From positions 1 to 60,066 of the forward strand of contig DTTI01000079.1 of NCBI GenBank assembly GCA_012964825.1: DNA of 60,066 nucleotides, in the 5' to 3' direction. A program made the position numbers and the translations under genes. This DNA comes from Candidatus Neomarinimicrobiota bacterium (lineage in GTDB: Bacteria; Fidelibacterota; Marinisomatia; Marinisomatales; S15-B10). The notes under the pieces were generated by a model. That model searched no databases. It saw nothing but the letters and a program-made list of their open reading frames with translations, and was not told the DNA's origin. Every line of letters starts with the position of its first letter. Position 1 is the stretch's first letter. This document shows positions 48,770 through 56,591 of the stretch, in pieces.

Positions 48770-49603
48770 TCAGCCGAGATAAATAGCCAGCAGACCAAGA
48801 AAAACGGAAAGTTTCAGTATCTGCGAAGCGGTATGACAGTTGTTTGAGGAGGGAGATTTCACAAGCAAACTTATGATATATGCGAGTGGAATGCCAATTC
48901 CCAGGATTGCCGCCACAAGATATTTTTCACTGTAGATGTTCATTAAATACGGAACGGCTAAGAGGGCCATGAAAAGAGTAGTTATCACGATAGCAACCCT
49001 TGCCGATGTTTCTAAACCAAATTTCACGGGGAAGGTAGTTAGCCCAGCGGCGCGGTCCCCTTCTGCGTCAGCCATATCTTTGATGAATTCTCTTACCACT
49101 GTAAACCCAAATGCCAGCAGTGACGGCGTTATCATCCGGTTCAATTCACTGAACAGTGCTCCCACAAATAGAAATGCCAGTCCGATGATTGCTGCCACAA
49201 TAATGTTACCGATTAAAACTGACCCTTTCAGCCATAAACTGTAGACCACCATGAGTGGAAGAGCAACAACTGCGGCAATGATGAAAGATTCGGTGTTCAT
49301 GGTAAATGAGATTCCCGCGCCCATCAGGAAAAGTAGGATGGAGAGTATCAATGCAGTTTTTGGAGAAAGGTCACCCTTTGGCAATGGTCTGTTCGTTTGG
49401 TTTATCCTGTCAGCCTCCAGATCGTGATAATCGTTAAATGCGTTGGCTGCGGCTATGAGAGACACCACCACAAGGATCCCTTTTATGAGGAGAACGACCT
49501 GGTCCAGGGCGTCAACTAGCGCCGCAGAAACGGCGACCGCCAGCGCACCCAGTAGAAGGTTCACGGGTCTAAAGAGCCTGATTGCAGCCAGGACGCTATT
49601 CAT
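48770..49603 (-). CDS. UbiA-family prenyltransferase
   Basis: Membrane enzyme with about nine spans that moves a prenyl group to an acceptor. First Asp-rich motif NDYHDLEADRINQTNRPLP (Asn57, Asp58, Asp61, Asp65), second motif DMADAEGDRAAG. 277 residues. This subfamily is often annotated as geranylgeranylglycerol-phosphate geranylgeranyltransferase (archaeal-type lipid synthesis) in FCB bacteria; the alternatives are quinone or heme O synthesis. Coupled to prmC by ATGA overlap. Confidence 0.88.
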   Translation of the reverse strand: MNSVLAAIRLFRPVNLLLGALAVAVSAALVDALDQVVLLIKGILVVVSLIAAANAFNDYHDLEADRINQTNRPLPKGDLSPKTALILSILLFLMGAGISFTMNTESFIIAAVVALPLMVVYSLWLKGSVLIGNIIVAAIIGLAFLFVGALFSELNRMITPSLLAFGFTVVREFIKDMADAEGDRAAGLTTFPVKFGLETSARVAIVITTLFMALLAVPYLMNIYSEKYLVAAILGIGIPLAYIISLLVKSPSSNNCHTASQILKLSVFLGLLAIYLG

Positions 49604-50490
49604 GGCCGTTTCGCTTTCAGCACTCTCGGATCTCCGTTGTAGTCTTTTAGCAGTTCAACCTTAGCCCACCCCGCTGACTCAAACAGTTCCTTAGTGCGAA
49701 ATGGGTGTTCACCACGGCCCACCTCTAAAATCATCGTGCCACCTTCCCGGAGCCAGTTTTTCCCTTCGCTGGCGAATTTTCTGTAAAAAGTTAGACCGTC
49801 AGCGTCATCCGTCAATGCCTCTCTCGGTTCAAAACACCGGACATTATCCTGAAGTGTTTTATACTCTTTCAGCGGCACGTAAGGCGGATTGCTGAGGATG
49901 ATATCAAAACAAATTTCTATATGATCGTTCAGAATGTCATGATCAAAGAACTCAATCCTTAAAGCGACGCCGTTTTTTTCAGCATTCAGATGCGCCACCT
50001 TCAGAGCACTTCGATTATTGTCAGTTGCCGCAACAGAAATCTCTTTAAGTGAGCGGGCGAGACTGATGGCAACAGCGCCGGAACCCGTACCGATATCCAA
50101 TATGGAAGATGCCTTACTTGTATTTGCTTCATCAATTGCAATTTCAACCAGCCGCTCTGTTTCAGGCCGCGGTATGAGGACATTTTCAGTGAGAGTGAAC
50201 GGCAGGCCAAAAAATTCCGTTTCACCTGTTATGTACTGAACCGGTTCGCCGGCAGCAGAGCGCCTCAGCCAGGCTCTAAAGGTGTTTTTTTGTTGGTGGG
50301 TGAGGCGGTGGCGGTCCGCTTCCATGTGGAGTTGAGATCTGGAAAGTTTGAGGAGGGAGGAGAGGAGCCATTCTGCCCGAGCCTTCGGTGCATCAGTTCT
50401 TGTATCAGTCAGCAATTTTACACCTGCATCCAAAACCCGTCGAACCGTGACGTTTTCCTGAACTGTGGCAAGTGGAGCCAGGTATGTCAA
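49600..50490 (-). CDS. prmC: Release factor glutamine methyltransferase
   Basis: Methylates the Gln of the GGQ motif in release factors. N-terminal helical domain ([19 protein letters not shown]), then SAM fold with [15 protein letters not shown] at 131-145 and the substrate motif NPPY at 201-204. 296 residues. Starts at TTG 50490, overlapping the prfA stop as TTGA. The prfA-prmC pairing is the common bacterial arrangement. Confidence 0.95.
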
Positions 50491-51557
50491 CTGAGATTTT
50501 CCGCTTTTAACTGTTCCAGCTGATCAGCAATCTTTAGTTGTTCGATGAGCTCGGTGAGATCACCGTTCATAATTTCCTCAAGCCTGTAAAGGGTCAATTC
50601 TATGCGGTGGTCTGTCACCCGTCCTTGAGGAAAATTGTAAGTACGGATCTTTGCACTCCGGTCTCCAGTGGACACCATGGTTTTTCTCGCCTCCGCCCGC
50701 TTTGACTGCTGTTTTTCCCGCTCGCGAGCCAGAAGACGGGATCTTAAAACTTTCATTGCCGCCACACGATTTTTGTGCTGCGATTTTTCATCTTGACAGG
50801 TGACCACAGTATCGGTGGGAATGTGAGTGATCCTGATAGCCGACTCTGTCTTATTCACATGCTGACCACCGGCTCCTGACGCTCGAAAGGTGTCAATACG
50901 CAAATCTTGGGGATTGATCTTAATATCAACCTCATCAGCTTCTGGCAGGACGGCGACCGTGGCGGCTGATGTGTGGATGCGCCCGCTGGTCTCTGTAGCG
51001 GGGACACGCTGCACCCGATGAACGCCCCCCTCGTATTTTAGTTTACCGAAAATAGTGTCACCTTGAAAGGAGCAGATCACCTCTTTGTAGCCGCCGTTAC
51101 CTGTTACATTTGCTGCAATCAGTTTGATGTTCCACCCGTTTTGCTCCGCAAAATGGCCGTACATGCGATAAAGGTCAGCGGCAAAAAGGGCTGCTTCTTC
51201 ACCACCCGTCCCAGCCCGGATCTCCATGATGGTATTTTTTTCATCCAGCGGATCTTTAGATAGCAGAAGAACCTTCAGCTCCTCTTCCAGCTTTAGGGCT
51301 TCGTCCCTTAATCCTTCAATCTCCTCCTGCACCAGATCTTTCAGCTCTTCATCGTCACCTTGCAGAATAGCTTCATCTTCATCAATTTGATCCGTGACAC
51401 TGATATACTCGCCCCCTTTTTTGGATACTGGCCCCAGGTCGTGGTGTTCTTTCGCCAGTTCGCGGTATCTACCCGGGTCAGACGCAATTTCAGGTTCGGC
51501 CAGCTGTGCAGTAACAGCTTCGTATCTTTTAATGATCTGTTTGACTTTATCTCTCAC
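50487..51557 (-). CDS. prfA: Peptide chain release factor 1
   Basis: Terminates translation at UAA and UAG. PAT at 186-188 in VPATETSGR is the stop-codon recognition tripeptide of RF1 (RF2 has SPF), and GGQ at 230-232 in [14 protein letters not shown] is the catalytic loop. 356 residues, full length. Starts at GTG 51557; no strong Shine-Dalgarno. First gene of the prfA-prmC-ubiA-dnaE-dtd-motAB run, preceded by the rpmE terminator. Confidence 0.96.
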
Positions 51558-51633: not shown

Positions 51634-51852
51634 TTACTGTTCGCCTTTGGCGTTCAGCTTTGCGTATTTTTTCTTGAACTTTTCGATACGGCCGGCGGTG
51701 TCAACCAGTTTTTGCTGACCGGAGAAAAACGGGTGGCATGCGGAGCAGATTTCCACTCGCATATCGCCCACGGTGCTTCGCACTTGGAACCTGTTGCCAC
51801 ATGCGCAGGTCACTGTACCGAGCGTGTATTCAGGATGAATCTCAGTTTTCAT
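51634..51852 (-). CDS. rpmE: 50S ribosomal protein L31
   Basis: 72-residue zinc-type L31: [16 protein letters not shown], then [20 protein letters not shown] with the second CxxC. Ends in a basic tail. Starts at ATG 51852, 9 bases after the aspartate aminotransferase stop, and is followed by a terminator, so it closes the rho operon. Confidence 0.97.
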
Positions 51853-51861
51853 TTCTTTCCT

Positions 51862-53046
51862 CTAATTCAGATCACTCAACGCCTTTTCAAGCATGTCGAT
51901 GCCTTCCAAAAAAACTGCCTCATCGGTGGCGTAAGAGAGCCTGATGTAGCCCTCTGACCCGAAGCCGGAACCGGCGACAGTCACCGTCTTTGCGCTGTCC
52001 AAAATATAATCACTTAGGGCAAAAGAACTGTTGATTATCTTCCCATCTGCGGCTAGGCCGATGTACTGACTCACATCGGGGAATGCATAGAATGCGCCCC
52101 CCGGTTTGGCGCAGGAGAAATTGGGAATGGAGTTGAGGCGGTTAATCATTGCATCACGACGTTTCGCAAAAATTTTGCACATAGTTTCAACTTCAGTCTG
52201 ATCACCGGTGAGTGCCTCCACGGCAGCTTTTTGTGCAATGGAGTTGGGGCAAGATGTCGCCTGTCCCTGTATTTTCGCCATAGCGCTGACGATTGTAGCA
52301 TCTCCGGCCGCATATCCGATCCGCCATCCAGTCATGGCATAAGTTTTGGATAAGCTCTGAATTGTTACCACATTGGCTCCCACGTCATTCAGGGCCTCCG
52401 TGCTGGTGAAGGGGGCATCATAGACGAGGCGTTCGTAGCATTCGTCAGAAATCACCAGCCAATTGTGTTTGGCGGCAAGTTCAAGAAGTCTTGTAACTGT
52501 CTCTTTGTCCCAGACTGCTCCCGTCGGATTGGAAGGCGAGTTAATGATAATTGCGGAAATTTTAGATGTGACTTTTGACTCAAGATCATTCCAGTCAGGA
52601 GAAAAATTGTTCTCGGTCATAGTTTGTACAATGATAGGTTCACCATCCGCCAGCCGGATAAATTCGGGAAATGAAACCCAGTAGGGTGCAAAGACAATGA
52701 CTTTATCCCCGGGGTTTAGTACAGCTTGGCAGAGTGTGCTGAGGGAATGCTTGGCGCCGTTTGAAACAATGATCTGATTCGGGGTGTAATCCAGATTATT
52801 GTCGCGCTTCAGTTTTTTGCAGATCGCTTCGCGAAGTTCCATTGTTCCTCTTCCGGGTGTGTACTTTGTATGACCGCCAGCCATTGCGCGAATGGCCGCC
52901 TGGCGGATATTTTCAGGTGTGTTGAAATCGGGTTCACCGACGCCAAGGTCAATTACATCTACACCGTTATTCCTTAAATCAGCAGCCCGCGCTGTCATCT
53001 CCAGAGTGAAAGATGGTTGGATCCGCTGGACTCTTTCAGCGATCAT
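51862..53046 (-). CDS. aspC: Class I aminotransferase, aspartate aminotransferase type
   Basis: PLP transaminase moving amino groups between aspartate/glutamate and keto acids. GVGEPDFNTPENI, SNPTGAVWDKETV at 172-184, ISDECYERLVYD, and the Schiff-base Lys234 in QSLSKTYAMTGWRIGY. 394 residues, the Ib subgroup type. Preceded by the Cas6-like gene (15-base gap). Exact substrate range is not readable. Confidence 0.93.
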   Translation of the reverse strand: MIAERVQRIQPSFTLEMTARAADLRNNGVDVIDLGVGEPDFNTPENIRQAAIRAMAGGHTKYTPGRGTMELREAICKKLKRDNNLDYTPNQIIVSNGAKHSLSTLCQAVLNPGDKVIVFAPYWVSFPEFIRLADGEPIIVQTMTENNFSPDWNDLESKVTSKISAIIINSPSNPTGAVWDKETVTRLLELAAKHNWLVISDECYERLVYDAPFTSTEALNDVGANVVTIQSLSKTYAMTGWRIGYAAGDATIVSAMAKIQGQATSCPNSIAQKAAVEALTGDQTEVETMCKIFAKRRDAMINRLNSIPNFSCAKPGGAFYAFPDVSQYIGLAADGKIINSSFALSDYILDSAKTVTVAGSGFGSEGYIRLSYATDEAVFLEGIDMLEKALSDLN

Positions 53047-53061
53047 AAGGATTATTCGGGA

Positions 53062-53946
53062 TCAATGCGTCTTGGAATGATATTTGGAAGTGTTGAAGTT
53101 AGGCTCTTTCGTCCCTTTCCCTTTTTCGGAGTTCTTGAGCCGCTTACTTTGAGGGATGTCATTTGGATCGATGGCTTCATCCTCCCAACCCTCGGGCAAT
53201 TCTCCTACTGGTTCGTCATCATCAGACTGGTTGTTTGCCAGCTCCAGTTCTTCTAAGGAAAAGTCTATCGGATTGAATTGACTGAATAGTACACCATAAC
53301 CTTTGGTGATCCCGTTCCCCAGGCCGATAAAGTTCGGCAAAATAAAGTTAGTTCTGAATTTACCATCAAAGCTGCCCATTTTTCCTTCATCCATCAAATT
53401 GGTCTGGAGCGATTCCAGAGAAAGATCTACGAAAATTCTTTTTTCAAGTGTAAGACCGACCTCCTTTCCAACGAAAGCAATATTCTGACTCAGCAGACGT
53501 CTCAGCAGTATTAAACGATCTTTATCTGTTAATGCTTTATAGCGTTTCAGGTTAATCTGGTTGAGAGCGATCCACGGAGTGAGAAATTTGTACTGGATTG
53601 TTTTATCGGTCGATCCTAAACCATCATCACAAACTTCAGTGTCGACACTCTCGACCTTGAAAGTGATGTTGCCGAAATTCAAAATGTCGAGTTTTTCAAC
53701 CATGGACTCAATGGACTCCACTCCTTCCTTGACTCCAATAAAATATATTTGTTCATTTAGTATCTTGACCTGTACACGGGGATACAGAAAGTCATTGCGG
53801 TAAGAGCCGTTGATAAAAGGGACGATGGGGTCATCCGGGAATTCTCTCATGAGAACGCCCTTAACCTGATAAGACGTCTTTCTAACCGGTTTATCGGTGG
53901 AGAGGCGGGCGACGACTGATTTTATATAAGATTGATCCTTAGACAC
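53062..53946 (-). CDS. Orphan Cas6-like RNA-binding protein
   Basis: 294 residues. N-terminal part KTSYQVKGVLMREFPDDPI, FINGSYRNDFLYPRVQVKI and a middle FLTPWIALNQINLKRY resemble the Cas6b-type N and C domains as I recall them. The decisive feature is GLGNGITKGYG at 208-218 after FRTNFILPNFI: it fits the glycine-rich loop GxGxxxxxGxG near the C terminus of Cas6 and other RAMP proteins. No His occurs before residue 290, so the usual Cas6 catalytic His is missing. Residues 228-294 are an added acidic then basic tail. It starts at GTG 53946 and sits between rho and aspC with no cas genes or repeats. A non-CRISPR RNA-binding role is inferred. Confidence 0.6.
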   Translation of the reverse strand: MSKDQSYIKSVVARLSTDKPVRKTSYQVKGVLMREFPDDPIVPFINGSYRNDFLYPRVQVKILNEQIYFIGVKEGVESIESMVEKLDILNFGNITFKVESVDTEVCDDGLGSTDKTIQYKFLTPWIALNQINLKRYKALTDKDRLILLRRLLSQNIAFVGKEVGLTLEKRIFVDLSLESLQTNLMDEGKMGSFDGKFRTNFILPNFIGLGNGITKGYGVLFSQFNPIDFSLEELELANNQSDDDEPVGELPEGWEDEAIDPNDIPQSKRLKNSEKGKGTKEPNFNTSKYHSKTH

Positions 53947-53971: not shown

Positions 53972-55219
53972 TTAGTTATTCATTGTATCCAAAAATTCTT
54001 TGTTATTTTCTGTTCGCCTCATTCTGTCGAGGAGAAATTCCATTGCTTCTATTGGAGTCATGTCGCTCAAAATCTTTCTTAGAATCCAAACTCTTGAAAG
54101 TTCTTTTTTGGAAAGTAAAAGTTCTTCTTTCCGTGTCCCTGAACGTATAAGGTCAAAGGATGGGAACAACCGACGGTCACTGAGGCGGCGATCGAGAACG
54201 AGCTCCATATTGCCGGTACCCTTAAACTCTTCAAAGATTACATCATCCATTCTGCTGCCTGTATCAATGAGCGCTGTTGCAATAATTGTGAGGCTTCCTC
54301 CTTCCTCTGTGTTCCGGGCTGCGCCGAAAAAGCGCCTGGGGCGATGAAGAGCATTGGCATCTACACCGCCTGAAAGGATTTTTCCACTGTGCGGAATCAC
54401 CGCGTTGTGGGCGCGGCCGAGGCGGGTAACACTATCAAGAAGTATCATCACATCGTGGCCGCTCTCTACCATCCGCTTGGCCTTTTCTAGGGCCATGTCC
54501 GCCACCTGAACGTGCCGTTCAGGCGGCTCATCAAAAGTAGAACTCACCACTTCGGTTTCAACGCTCCGCTCCATGTCTGTCACTTCTTCCGGCCGCTCCG
54601 CAACGAGTAGGATAATAATCTTAATTTCAGGATGGTTCTTAAGTGTGGTATTGGCGATTTTTTGCAGAAGCATTGTTTTTCCCGTCTTCGGCTGGGCGAC
54701 GATTAGTCCTCTCTGACCTTTGCCGATAGGCGCCATGAGATCAAGGATTCGCATCGAAAATTCCTTCGATTCCCCTTCAAGGTTGATCCGTTCTTCAGGG
54801 TAAAGTGGCTTGAGGCTATCAAACAGAATAGTTTTTTTGACCTGATCCGGTGCCTCGCCGTTCACTGTTTCAACTTTTAGTAGGGCGTAGAAACGTTCGT
54901 TATCCTTGGGATTGCGGATCTGTCCGGCCACCAGATGACCGGTGCGGAGATTGAATCTTTTTATCTGGGAAGGGGAGACATAGATGTCATCAGGCCCTGG
55001 GAGGTAGTTATAATCCTGCGATCGCAAGAAGCCGTATCCCTCCTTCATCACCTCGATAACGCCAGAAGAAAACAGTTTCCCTTCTTTCTCGGCACTGGTT
55101 TCGAGAATGCGCATGATCAATTGTTGTTTCTTCAGACCGGAATAACCGGAAACTTCCATCTCCTGAGCGAGCTTGGTTAATTCCTTGATCTTCTGGCCCT
55201 GTAACTGGGTTACATCCAT
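53972..55219 (-). CDS. rho: Transcription termination factor Rho
   Basis: Hexameric RNA helicase that ends transcription. Rho N domain ([19 protein letters not shown]), RNA-binding cold-shock-like fold ([20 protein letters not shown]), and ATPase with Walker A QPKTGKT at 176-182, [32 protein letters not shown] and the RNA-loop SRTEEGGSL-type segment [18 protein letters not shown]. 415 residues. Leads the rho-cas6-like-aspC-rpmE unit. Confidence 0.97.
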
Positions 55220-55288: not shown

Positions 55289-55318
55289 AAAAAGGCAGCC
55301 TCTAATTTAATTTAGGCT
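55289..55318 (-). terminator. Weak candidate terminator after folC
   Basis: On the minus strand AGCCT (55318-55314, overlapping the folC stop) pairs with AGGCT (55301-55297), with an AT-rich loop, then GCC and five Ts (55293-55289). Stem is only 5 bp, so support is modest. Lies between folC and rho. Confidence 0.35.
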
Positions 55319-56591
55319 AAATCTCGCCTTTGTCAAAGGGAAAATGAAAGACGCTGAATACGTCCTCCGCTATATAATGTGTACCAAATATAAACCACAG
55401 GTCCACGCTCCTATTTCCCGACTTGCACCGCTCTAGACCTTCAGTCACAGATTGACACGCTTCAGCAGGAATATCCGCTTTTTTCAAAGAAGCGGCCACT
55501 ATTTCGGCAGAGTGAAATTCGCCGTGGTCGGGCTGAACGGTTATGATCTGATTGAAGTATTTTTTAAGAACAGTTGTGATGCCGTCGAGGTCCTTGTTTT
55601 TCTTGAATCCGCAAATTGCACCAAAGTTGGCTTTGGGGAAAATTTCTCTCAGAGATCCGGCTGCGGCACTGATACCGTGAGGGTTGTGCCCCACATCATA
55701 ATAAGCCAATGGATTTTCGCTCAATTTTTGAAGTCTTCCTGGCCATACAATTTTTGTCAGTCCTATTTTCACAACATCATCGCCGAGTTTGGGATCAAAG
55801 AGACTACACGCCGCTATGGCGGTCTGTGCATTTATCACCTGATATTTCCCAAATAGAGGTAGATCTATTGATGTTTCACCGATAGCAAAACGACTGCCAT
55901 TGGGGCTTTGAACAGCTGCGGCAACTGGACATACCTCTGATGTCAAAAAGAGAGGACACTCCTTGTCTTTCGAGGATGATTCGATGACAGACATCACTTT
56001 CTCGTGTTGAGGAGCCGTTACCACTGGCACATCTTTTCTTAATATCCCGCACTTCTCCCTTGCAATGGATGGGAGATCACCACCGAGAAATTCCATGTGG
56101 TCAAAATCTATGGGAGTAAGTACCGAAACAATAGATTCAGAAACGTTACTGGAATCGAGCCGCCCGCCCAGGCCAACTTCTACCACCGCAATATCCACCG
56201 CCTCATCAGCGAAGTAGCTGAACATCATGGCGGTGGTGGTTTCAAAGAAGGTGGAGCCGAGGGTGTCAATCTCACCACGATATTTCTTCAGAAATGAGAC
56301 AATCCACTCATCGGGGATGGGGATTCCTCCGACTCGAATTCTTTCATTGAACCTCACCAGGTGAGGAGATGTGTAGAGTCCCACTTTCCGGCCCGTTGAT
56401 CTGAGAATGGAAGAGGTCATGGCGGCAGTGGACCCTTTTCCATTGGTCCCCGCAATATGAATGACAGGGAGGCCGTGATGAGGGTTTTTGCACCGTTTCA
56501 GCAACATCTCTGTGCGGTGGAGCCCTATCTTGATTCCCCTGCGCCGAAGAGAATAGAGATAGTCTAACGTAGCTTTATCGAGGGAAGACAA
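55317..56591 (-). CDS. folC: Folylpolyglutamate synthase / dihydrofolate synthase
   Basis: Mur-ligase-family enzyme that adds glutamate to dihydropteroate and folates. P-loop HIAGTNGKGSTAAM at 45-58, TSPHLVRFNERIRV, GLGGRLDSSN, DFDHMEFLG and KCGILRKDVPVV. 424 residues. Starts at TTG 56591, 35 bases after the amidase stop; no ATG is available near the conserved N terminus. FolC homologues begin about here. Confidence 0.94.
   Translation of the reverse strand: MSSLDKATLDYLYSLRRRGIKIGLHRTEMLLKRCKNPHHGLPVIHIAGTNGKGSTAAMTSSILRSTGRKVGLYTSPHLVRFNERIRVGGIPIPDEWIVSFLKKYRGEIDTLGSTFFETTTAMMFSYFADEAVDIAVVEVGLGGRLDSSNVSESIVSVLTPIDFDHMEFLGGDLPSIAREKCGILRKDVPVVTAPQHEKVMSVIESSSKDKECPLFLTSEVCPVAAAVQSPNGSRFAIGETSIDLPLFGKYQVINAQTAIAACSLFDPKLGDDVVKIGLTKIVWPGRLQKLSENPLAYYDVGHNPHGISAAAGSLREIFPKANFGAICGFKKNKDLDGITTVLKKYFNQIITVQPDHGEFHSAEIVAASLKKADIPAEACQSVTEGLERCKSGNRSVDLWFIFGTHYIAEDVFSVFHFPFDKGEI

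Follow-up and report, generated by a model that had tools for sequence, protein, structure and literature searches.

A rho-linked Cas6b-family protein apart from CRISPR loci in Fidelibacterota

Gene order at the rho locus and its conservation

The window (the whole stretch of DNA analysed here, 60,066 nucleotides) contains a run of genes, all on the minus strand, in the order folC, rho, cas6L, aspC, rpmE, prfA and prmC. We have used the name cas6L for the gene at 53062..53946, which has a GTG start and encodes a rho-linked Cas6b-fold protein of 294 aa. Upstream of it are rho (53972..55219, 415 aa, with the Pfam domains Rho_N, Rho_RNA_bind and ATP-synt_ab) and folC (55317..56591, assigned by Mur_ligase_M, Mur_ligase_C and its sequence). 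Downstream are an aspC-type aminotransferase (51862..53046, Aminotran_1_2), rpmE for bL31 (51634..51852, recognized by sequence), prfA for release factor 1 (50487..51557, PCRF and RF-1) and prmC (49600..50490, PrmC_N and MTS). The packing of cas6L is as tight as the initial annotation had described, with gaps of 25 nt to rho and 15 nt to aspC. A putative promoter for rho and cas6L (TTGACA-16-TAAATT, 55309..55336, minus strand), read from the leaders, overlaps the 3' end of folC. It is sigma-70-like, and many members of the order have similar sites.

The relatives that bear a name are Candidatus Marinimicrobia/Neomarinimicrobiota; in the taxonomy of the tree the phylum is called Fidelibacterota (formerly Marinimicrobia/SAR406). 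Within a set of 101 genomes, mainly from the order of the present genome, 77 have cas6L, and the genomes of the set that lack it belong nearly all to one small-genome family (0.4-1.0 Mb). Throughout the phylum a Cas6b_C match was found in 130 of 245 genomes, and all 130 were resolved: in 126 of them, the carriers, cas6L comes immediately after rho and is read from the same strand (104 established from fetched loci, 22 from coordinates), while the remaining four genomes (G121, G123, G209 and G218) have Cas6b solely away from rho. Since it recurs in 126 genomes, this order of rho and cas6L is far beyond what chance would produce. Outside the phylum, 8 of about 147 sampled genomes contain Cas6b, none of them near rho; the protein scan of genome contigs for cas6L reaches close relatives only, so further phyla may have rho-linked copies too.

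The usual arrangement, in the order and in most other carriers, is rho-cas6L-aspC-(rpmE)-prfA. In families f22 and f23 the rho-cas6L pair is intact and other genes follow downstream, so the association is with rho. The gene had been placed initially in a rho-aspC-rpmE operon; the connection to rho stands, and aspC falls outside it. The position beside rho is conserved across the phylum whether or not CRISPR is present. Most lineages without cas6L have a clean, direct rho-aspC or rho-rpmE junction. In family f15 (small genomes; L179, L180, L182 and L183) and in f16 (L159-L161) rho comes directly before aspC, with no cas6L. Two rho-cas6L loci (L041 and L068) were seen in genome G087, which has 5% contamination and is probably a mixed genome bin, and in L004/L007 the rho gene (8733-9967 of L004) is broken into two frames, probably by a sequencing frameshift.

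Alternatively, cas6L may do no more than autoregulate its own operon, by binding the rho mRNA and repressing transcription or translation, and take no direct part in termination. The short intergenic gaps, the putative shared promoter and the strict linkage to rho are all consistent with this, as is the capacity of some Cas6 proteins to bind unstructured RNA (PMC3652601). However, the features shared by the rho leaders are only the promoter -10 region, the one clear case, and the ribosome-binding sites. Inspection by eye, k-mer counts and alignment revealed no common motif or structure in the leaders and no conserved RNA element there or in the rho-cas6L gap, and an Rfam search of the window had zero matches. 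Autoregulation would also leave the conserved C-terminal motif of the protein (see below) unexplained, and we regard it as a rather improbable account of the gene.

A Cas6b fold with an altered active site

The initial annotation had compared the N-terminal blocks of the protein to Cas6b domains, and both Cas6b_N (4.6e-10, residues 8-100) and Cas6b_C (2.5e-27, residues 112-220) exceed the curated Pfam cut-offs. Together they define a double-RAMP core at residues 8-222 (53281..53925, minus strand; PF17955 and PF17262), with pLDDT mostly >92. The Cas6 and Cas6b models of PADLOC match as well, and neither they nor Pfam place the protein in an unrelated family. The closest solved structure by sequence is that of a Cas6b, 4z7k (7e-25). 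The AlphaFold model, built from 86 aligned sequences (pLDDT 88.4, pTM 0.84), is predicted to have the Cas6b double-RAMP fold. Its top PDB matches in Foldseek are 4z7k and 4z7l (E 1e-13 to 1e-17; TM 0.76-0.81, normalised to target), and the remaining significant ones are mostly Cas6 proteins. cas6L thus belongs to the Cas6b structural family. Its four plasmid relatives are each annotated as Cas6, and the one that we inspected lies inside a type III-B cas cluster.

Among the known systems, one of the closest is the type I-B Cas6b of M. maripaludis (4z7k/4z7l). Both proteins have the Cas6b domains, a glycine-rich loop and a core of about 220 aa with the same double-RAMP fold (Foldseek 1.1e-17). 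Unlike it, cas6L has no H-x-H and no CRISPR locus, has Asn for Lys/Arg after G-x-G, is fixed beside rho and carries an order-specific tail. The loop, GLGNGITKGYG at residues 208-218 (53293..53325, minus strand), had been recognized from the start as the glycine-rich loop of Cas6, and it fits the consensus GhGxxxxxGhG with K/R (PMC3936711). The Asn that replaces the Lys/Arg of CRISPR Cas6b is found in 97 of 103 rho-linked proteins, which retain the loop itself.

At the position of the catalytic H-x-H, as aligned with 4z7k and the CRISPR-type Cas6b proteins, cas6L reads P-F-(gap)-I-N (residues 43-46; 53809..53820, minus strand), and most rho-linked proteins read P-[FMLY]-(gap). In none of the 103 is the first or the third residue of the motif a His, whereas in the other Cas6b proteins of the phylum the first position is His in seven and Asn in one, and the third is His in 8/8. 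The statement that there is no His before residue 290 is exact: the only histidines of cas6L are residues 290 and 294. Two His residues are implicated in catalysis by the M. maripaludis Cas6b, yet the Cas6 of S. solfataricus lacks the catalytic His and cleaves via a network of basic residues (PMC3652601). Because a Cas6 without this His can still cleave, the loss of catalysis in cas6L is likely from its sequence, not proven. The S. solfataricus protein Sso1437 resembles cas6L in having a Cas6 fold without the catalytic His, and differs in that it serves CRISPR arrays, cleaves, and is not linked to rho.

This precedent gives some weight to the idea that cas6L has remained a ribonuclease, whose unusual His-free active site would cut one particular cellular RNA, such as the mRNA of the rho operon. 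Most rho-linked members retain four basic residues (K29, R50, K61 and K/R215), which speaks for such a site. Against this, the H-x-H and the Lys after G-x-G have been consistently lost in the rho-linked clade and are present in the other Cas6b proteins of the phylum. The core has also become less positive, with a mean net charge of about +3 in rho-linked proteins vs +8 in CRISPR Cas6b (the core of cas6L has a pI of about 8.2). A surviving ribonuclease activity seems to us unlikely, without being far-fetched.

Independence from CRISPR and evolutionary history

The absence of a CRISPR locus, remarked upon in the initial annotation, extends beyond the vicinity of the gene. There is no array in the 60 kb window, and family searches of its own 2.2 Mb assembly (97.6% complete) found no Cas1 and no type III RAMP gene. 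Cas1 was detected in 31 of the 245 phylum genomes and in 12 of the 126 cas6L carriers, and among the 101 relatives Cas1 was found in 5 and type III RAMP genes in 1; these counts are lower bounds, many assemblies being incomplete. Three of the Cas1 genomes of the order could be typed: G021 has a type III system with a Csm4 gene and a Cas6b-like gene of its own, G045 a type V system with Cas12a, and G034 a type II system with Cas9, so that cas6L is not needed by the CRISPR of any of them. G024 contains a separate Cas6b with H-x-H, together with a fragmentary Cas1 match. At locus L157 (genome G091) Cas1 is found at the contig edge and the scanned neighbouring proteins match no cas family.

Elsewhere in the phylum Cas6b was confirmed beside Cas8 (TM1802), Cas7 and Cas5 at L148, beside Cas3 and an array at L147 and beside an array at L153. 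The proteins of L039, L040 and L149 were classed as CRISPR-type by sequence (H-x-H and tree position), their scanned neighbours not being cas genes. That cas6L could be an ordinary Cas6 processing CRISPR RNA in trans is suggested by its family. This is contradicted by the lack of Cas1 in most carriers, by typed loci that have their own Cas6b or are type II or V, and by the loss of the catalytic His in 103/103 proteins, and we give it practically no credence. cas6L is no CRISPR component, and the earlier proposal that it was domesticated away from CRISPR is well supported by its position at rho in 126/126 carriers, by Cas1 in 12/126 and by the lost His. In practical terms, a Cas6 annotation by itself is no evidence of CRISPR in a Fidelibacterota genome.

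When 74 Cas6b proteins were placed on a tree, a single branch (support 98/91) separated the 57 rho-linked from the 17 CRISPR-type sequences. Mapped on the Rho tree, the presence of cas6L requires 8 changes, and it is therefore dispensable in several lineages. With a single clade and a single position, these changes read as one early gain followed by several losses, and the rho-cas6L block may also have been transferred. A single domestication, early in the history of the phylum, is the most likely origin of cas6L. Purifying selection acts on its core, for which two comparisons gave dN/dS values of 0.105-0.118; the tail is looser (0.34-0.50). The reading frame is open in nearly all genomes. The losses in several lineages would be expected if cas6L were carried along neutrally in a conserved operon and had no function today, but this is contradicted by the purifying selection on the core (dN/dS about 0.11), by the frame open nearly everywhere and by persistence throughout the phylum; we consider it extremely unlikely.

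Rho is attacked by some phages, for example through the Psu protein of P4. A protein with ancestry in defence might thus monitor or protect Rho, or turn it on phage transcripts. However, the fixed housekeeping position in the chromosome and the largely vertical pattern of cas6L are unlike those of mobile defence genes, and a search for its viral relatives found none, which makes a defence device very improbable.

Proposed role at Rho and the C-terminal tail

The reading that we favour, by a little, is that cas6L is a captured Cas6b paralogue acting as a non-cleaving RNA binder and as a partner or regulator of Rho. The paralogue would have been captured once, early in Fidelibacterota, into the rho transcription unit, losing its CRISPR job and the H-x-H centre and keeping the double-RAMP RNA-binding platform with its glycine-rich loop. 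With the platform kept and the H-x-H lost, the protein most likely binds RNA that is single-stranded and leaves it uncut. This could be nascent RNA, the RNA on which Rho loads or the rho mRNA itself, and the binding would modulate Rho-dependent termination or the levels of Rho. We infer the binding or processing of RNA and the functional tie to Rho from the fold, the conservation of the loop and the gene order. Among possible roles, that of Rho partner or regulator is the best supported because of the apparent co-transcription with rho and because the pair is kept when the neighbours change. Gene adjacency alone is insufficient to prove a function shared with Rho, and the proposed role is limited by the less basic core, by the leaders, where no RNA target was seen, and by Rho itself, in which no residues track the presence of cas6L.

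The known cofactors and inhibitors of Rho, such as NusG, YaeO/Rof and Psu, have folds unrelated to that of cas6L. The analogy with them that we propose, that of a small Rho modulator, is functional only. Like solo-Cas4 and other stray Cas proteins, cas6L is a Cas-family gene outside CRISPR-cas loci; unlike solo-Cas4, it occupies one fixed housekeeping position across a phylum. The reuse of CRISPR parts has been reported mostly in mobile elements, in defence and in the regulation by whole systems (PMC8730458). Our search, which covered the open-access literature, turned up no account of a Cas6 linked to rho. As a protein cas6L is a member of the known Cas6b family, and as a system it is new and independent of CRISPR. 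One protein of a Cas family has here acquired a fixed place beside an almost universal transcription factor, and this throughout a phylum that is common in ocean waters. The arrangement points to a former defence protein that has taken up a housekeeping job as an RNA-binding partner of Rho. It raises the testable question of whether Rho has an RNA-binding partner of its own in Fidelibacterota.

The protein ends in a tail of 72 aa (53065..53280, minus strand), acidic then basic as the initial annotation had it (with a length of about 65 residues), predicted to be mostly disordered by its sequence and by AlphaFold. Its net charge is -9, with a basic/His motif at the end. The tail is absent from other classes and thus characterizes one order and not the family, so it is an addition and not the founding function. 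Within the order the tails are variable, of about 70-164 aa, and terminate in FNxxxYHKKQH or close variants. In cas6L this short motif, FNxxxYHxKxH (here FNTSKYHSKTH; 53065..53097, minus strand), forms a short helix in the model, and in 60 aligned order members its Asn and first His are invariant. The genome has no second exact copy of the motif; matches with 2 mismatches were about as frequent as in the reversed-pattern control, and none of the five that were translated had a convincing C-terminus. Residues 247-265 (...DPNDIPQSKR; 53152..53208, minus strand), a segment covered by the motif alignment, are predicted with pLDDT 78-94, and the equivalent segment is confidently predicted in the model of a second family member too. 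To judge from these models, this DVP-type segment probably packs on the core.

In this one order the flexible tail would probably recruit a protein partner through its FNxxxYHKKQH end. Along these lines, a more specific version of the favoured reading can be put forward tentatively, as possible but somewhat doubtful: cas6L would be a dedicated non-cleaving cofactor of Rho, selecting RNA for termination or shielding it from termination, with a partner-recruiting tail motif and an origin in a single early conversion. If true, a Cas protein would here have gained a second life, as a part of core transcription. The tails of the order members show the conserved FNxxxYHKKQH end behind a hypervariable linker, together with DVPKPxR and KKVLSEEFDIEE segments, and all three have the appearance of probable short binding motifs.
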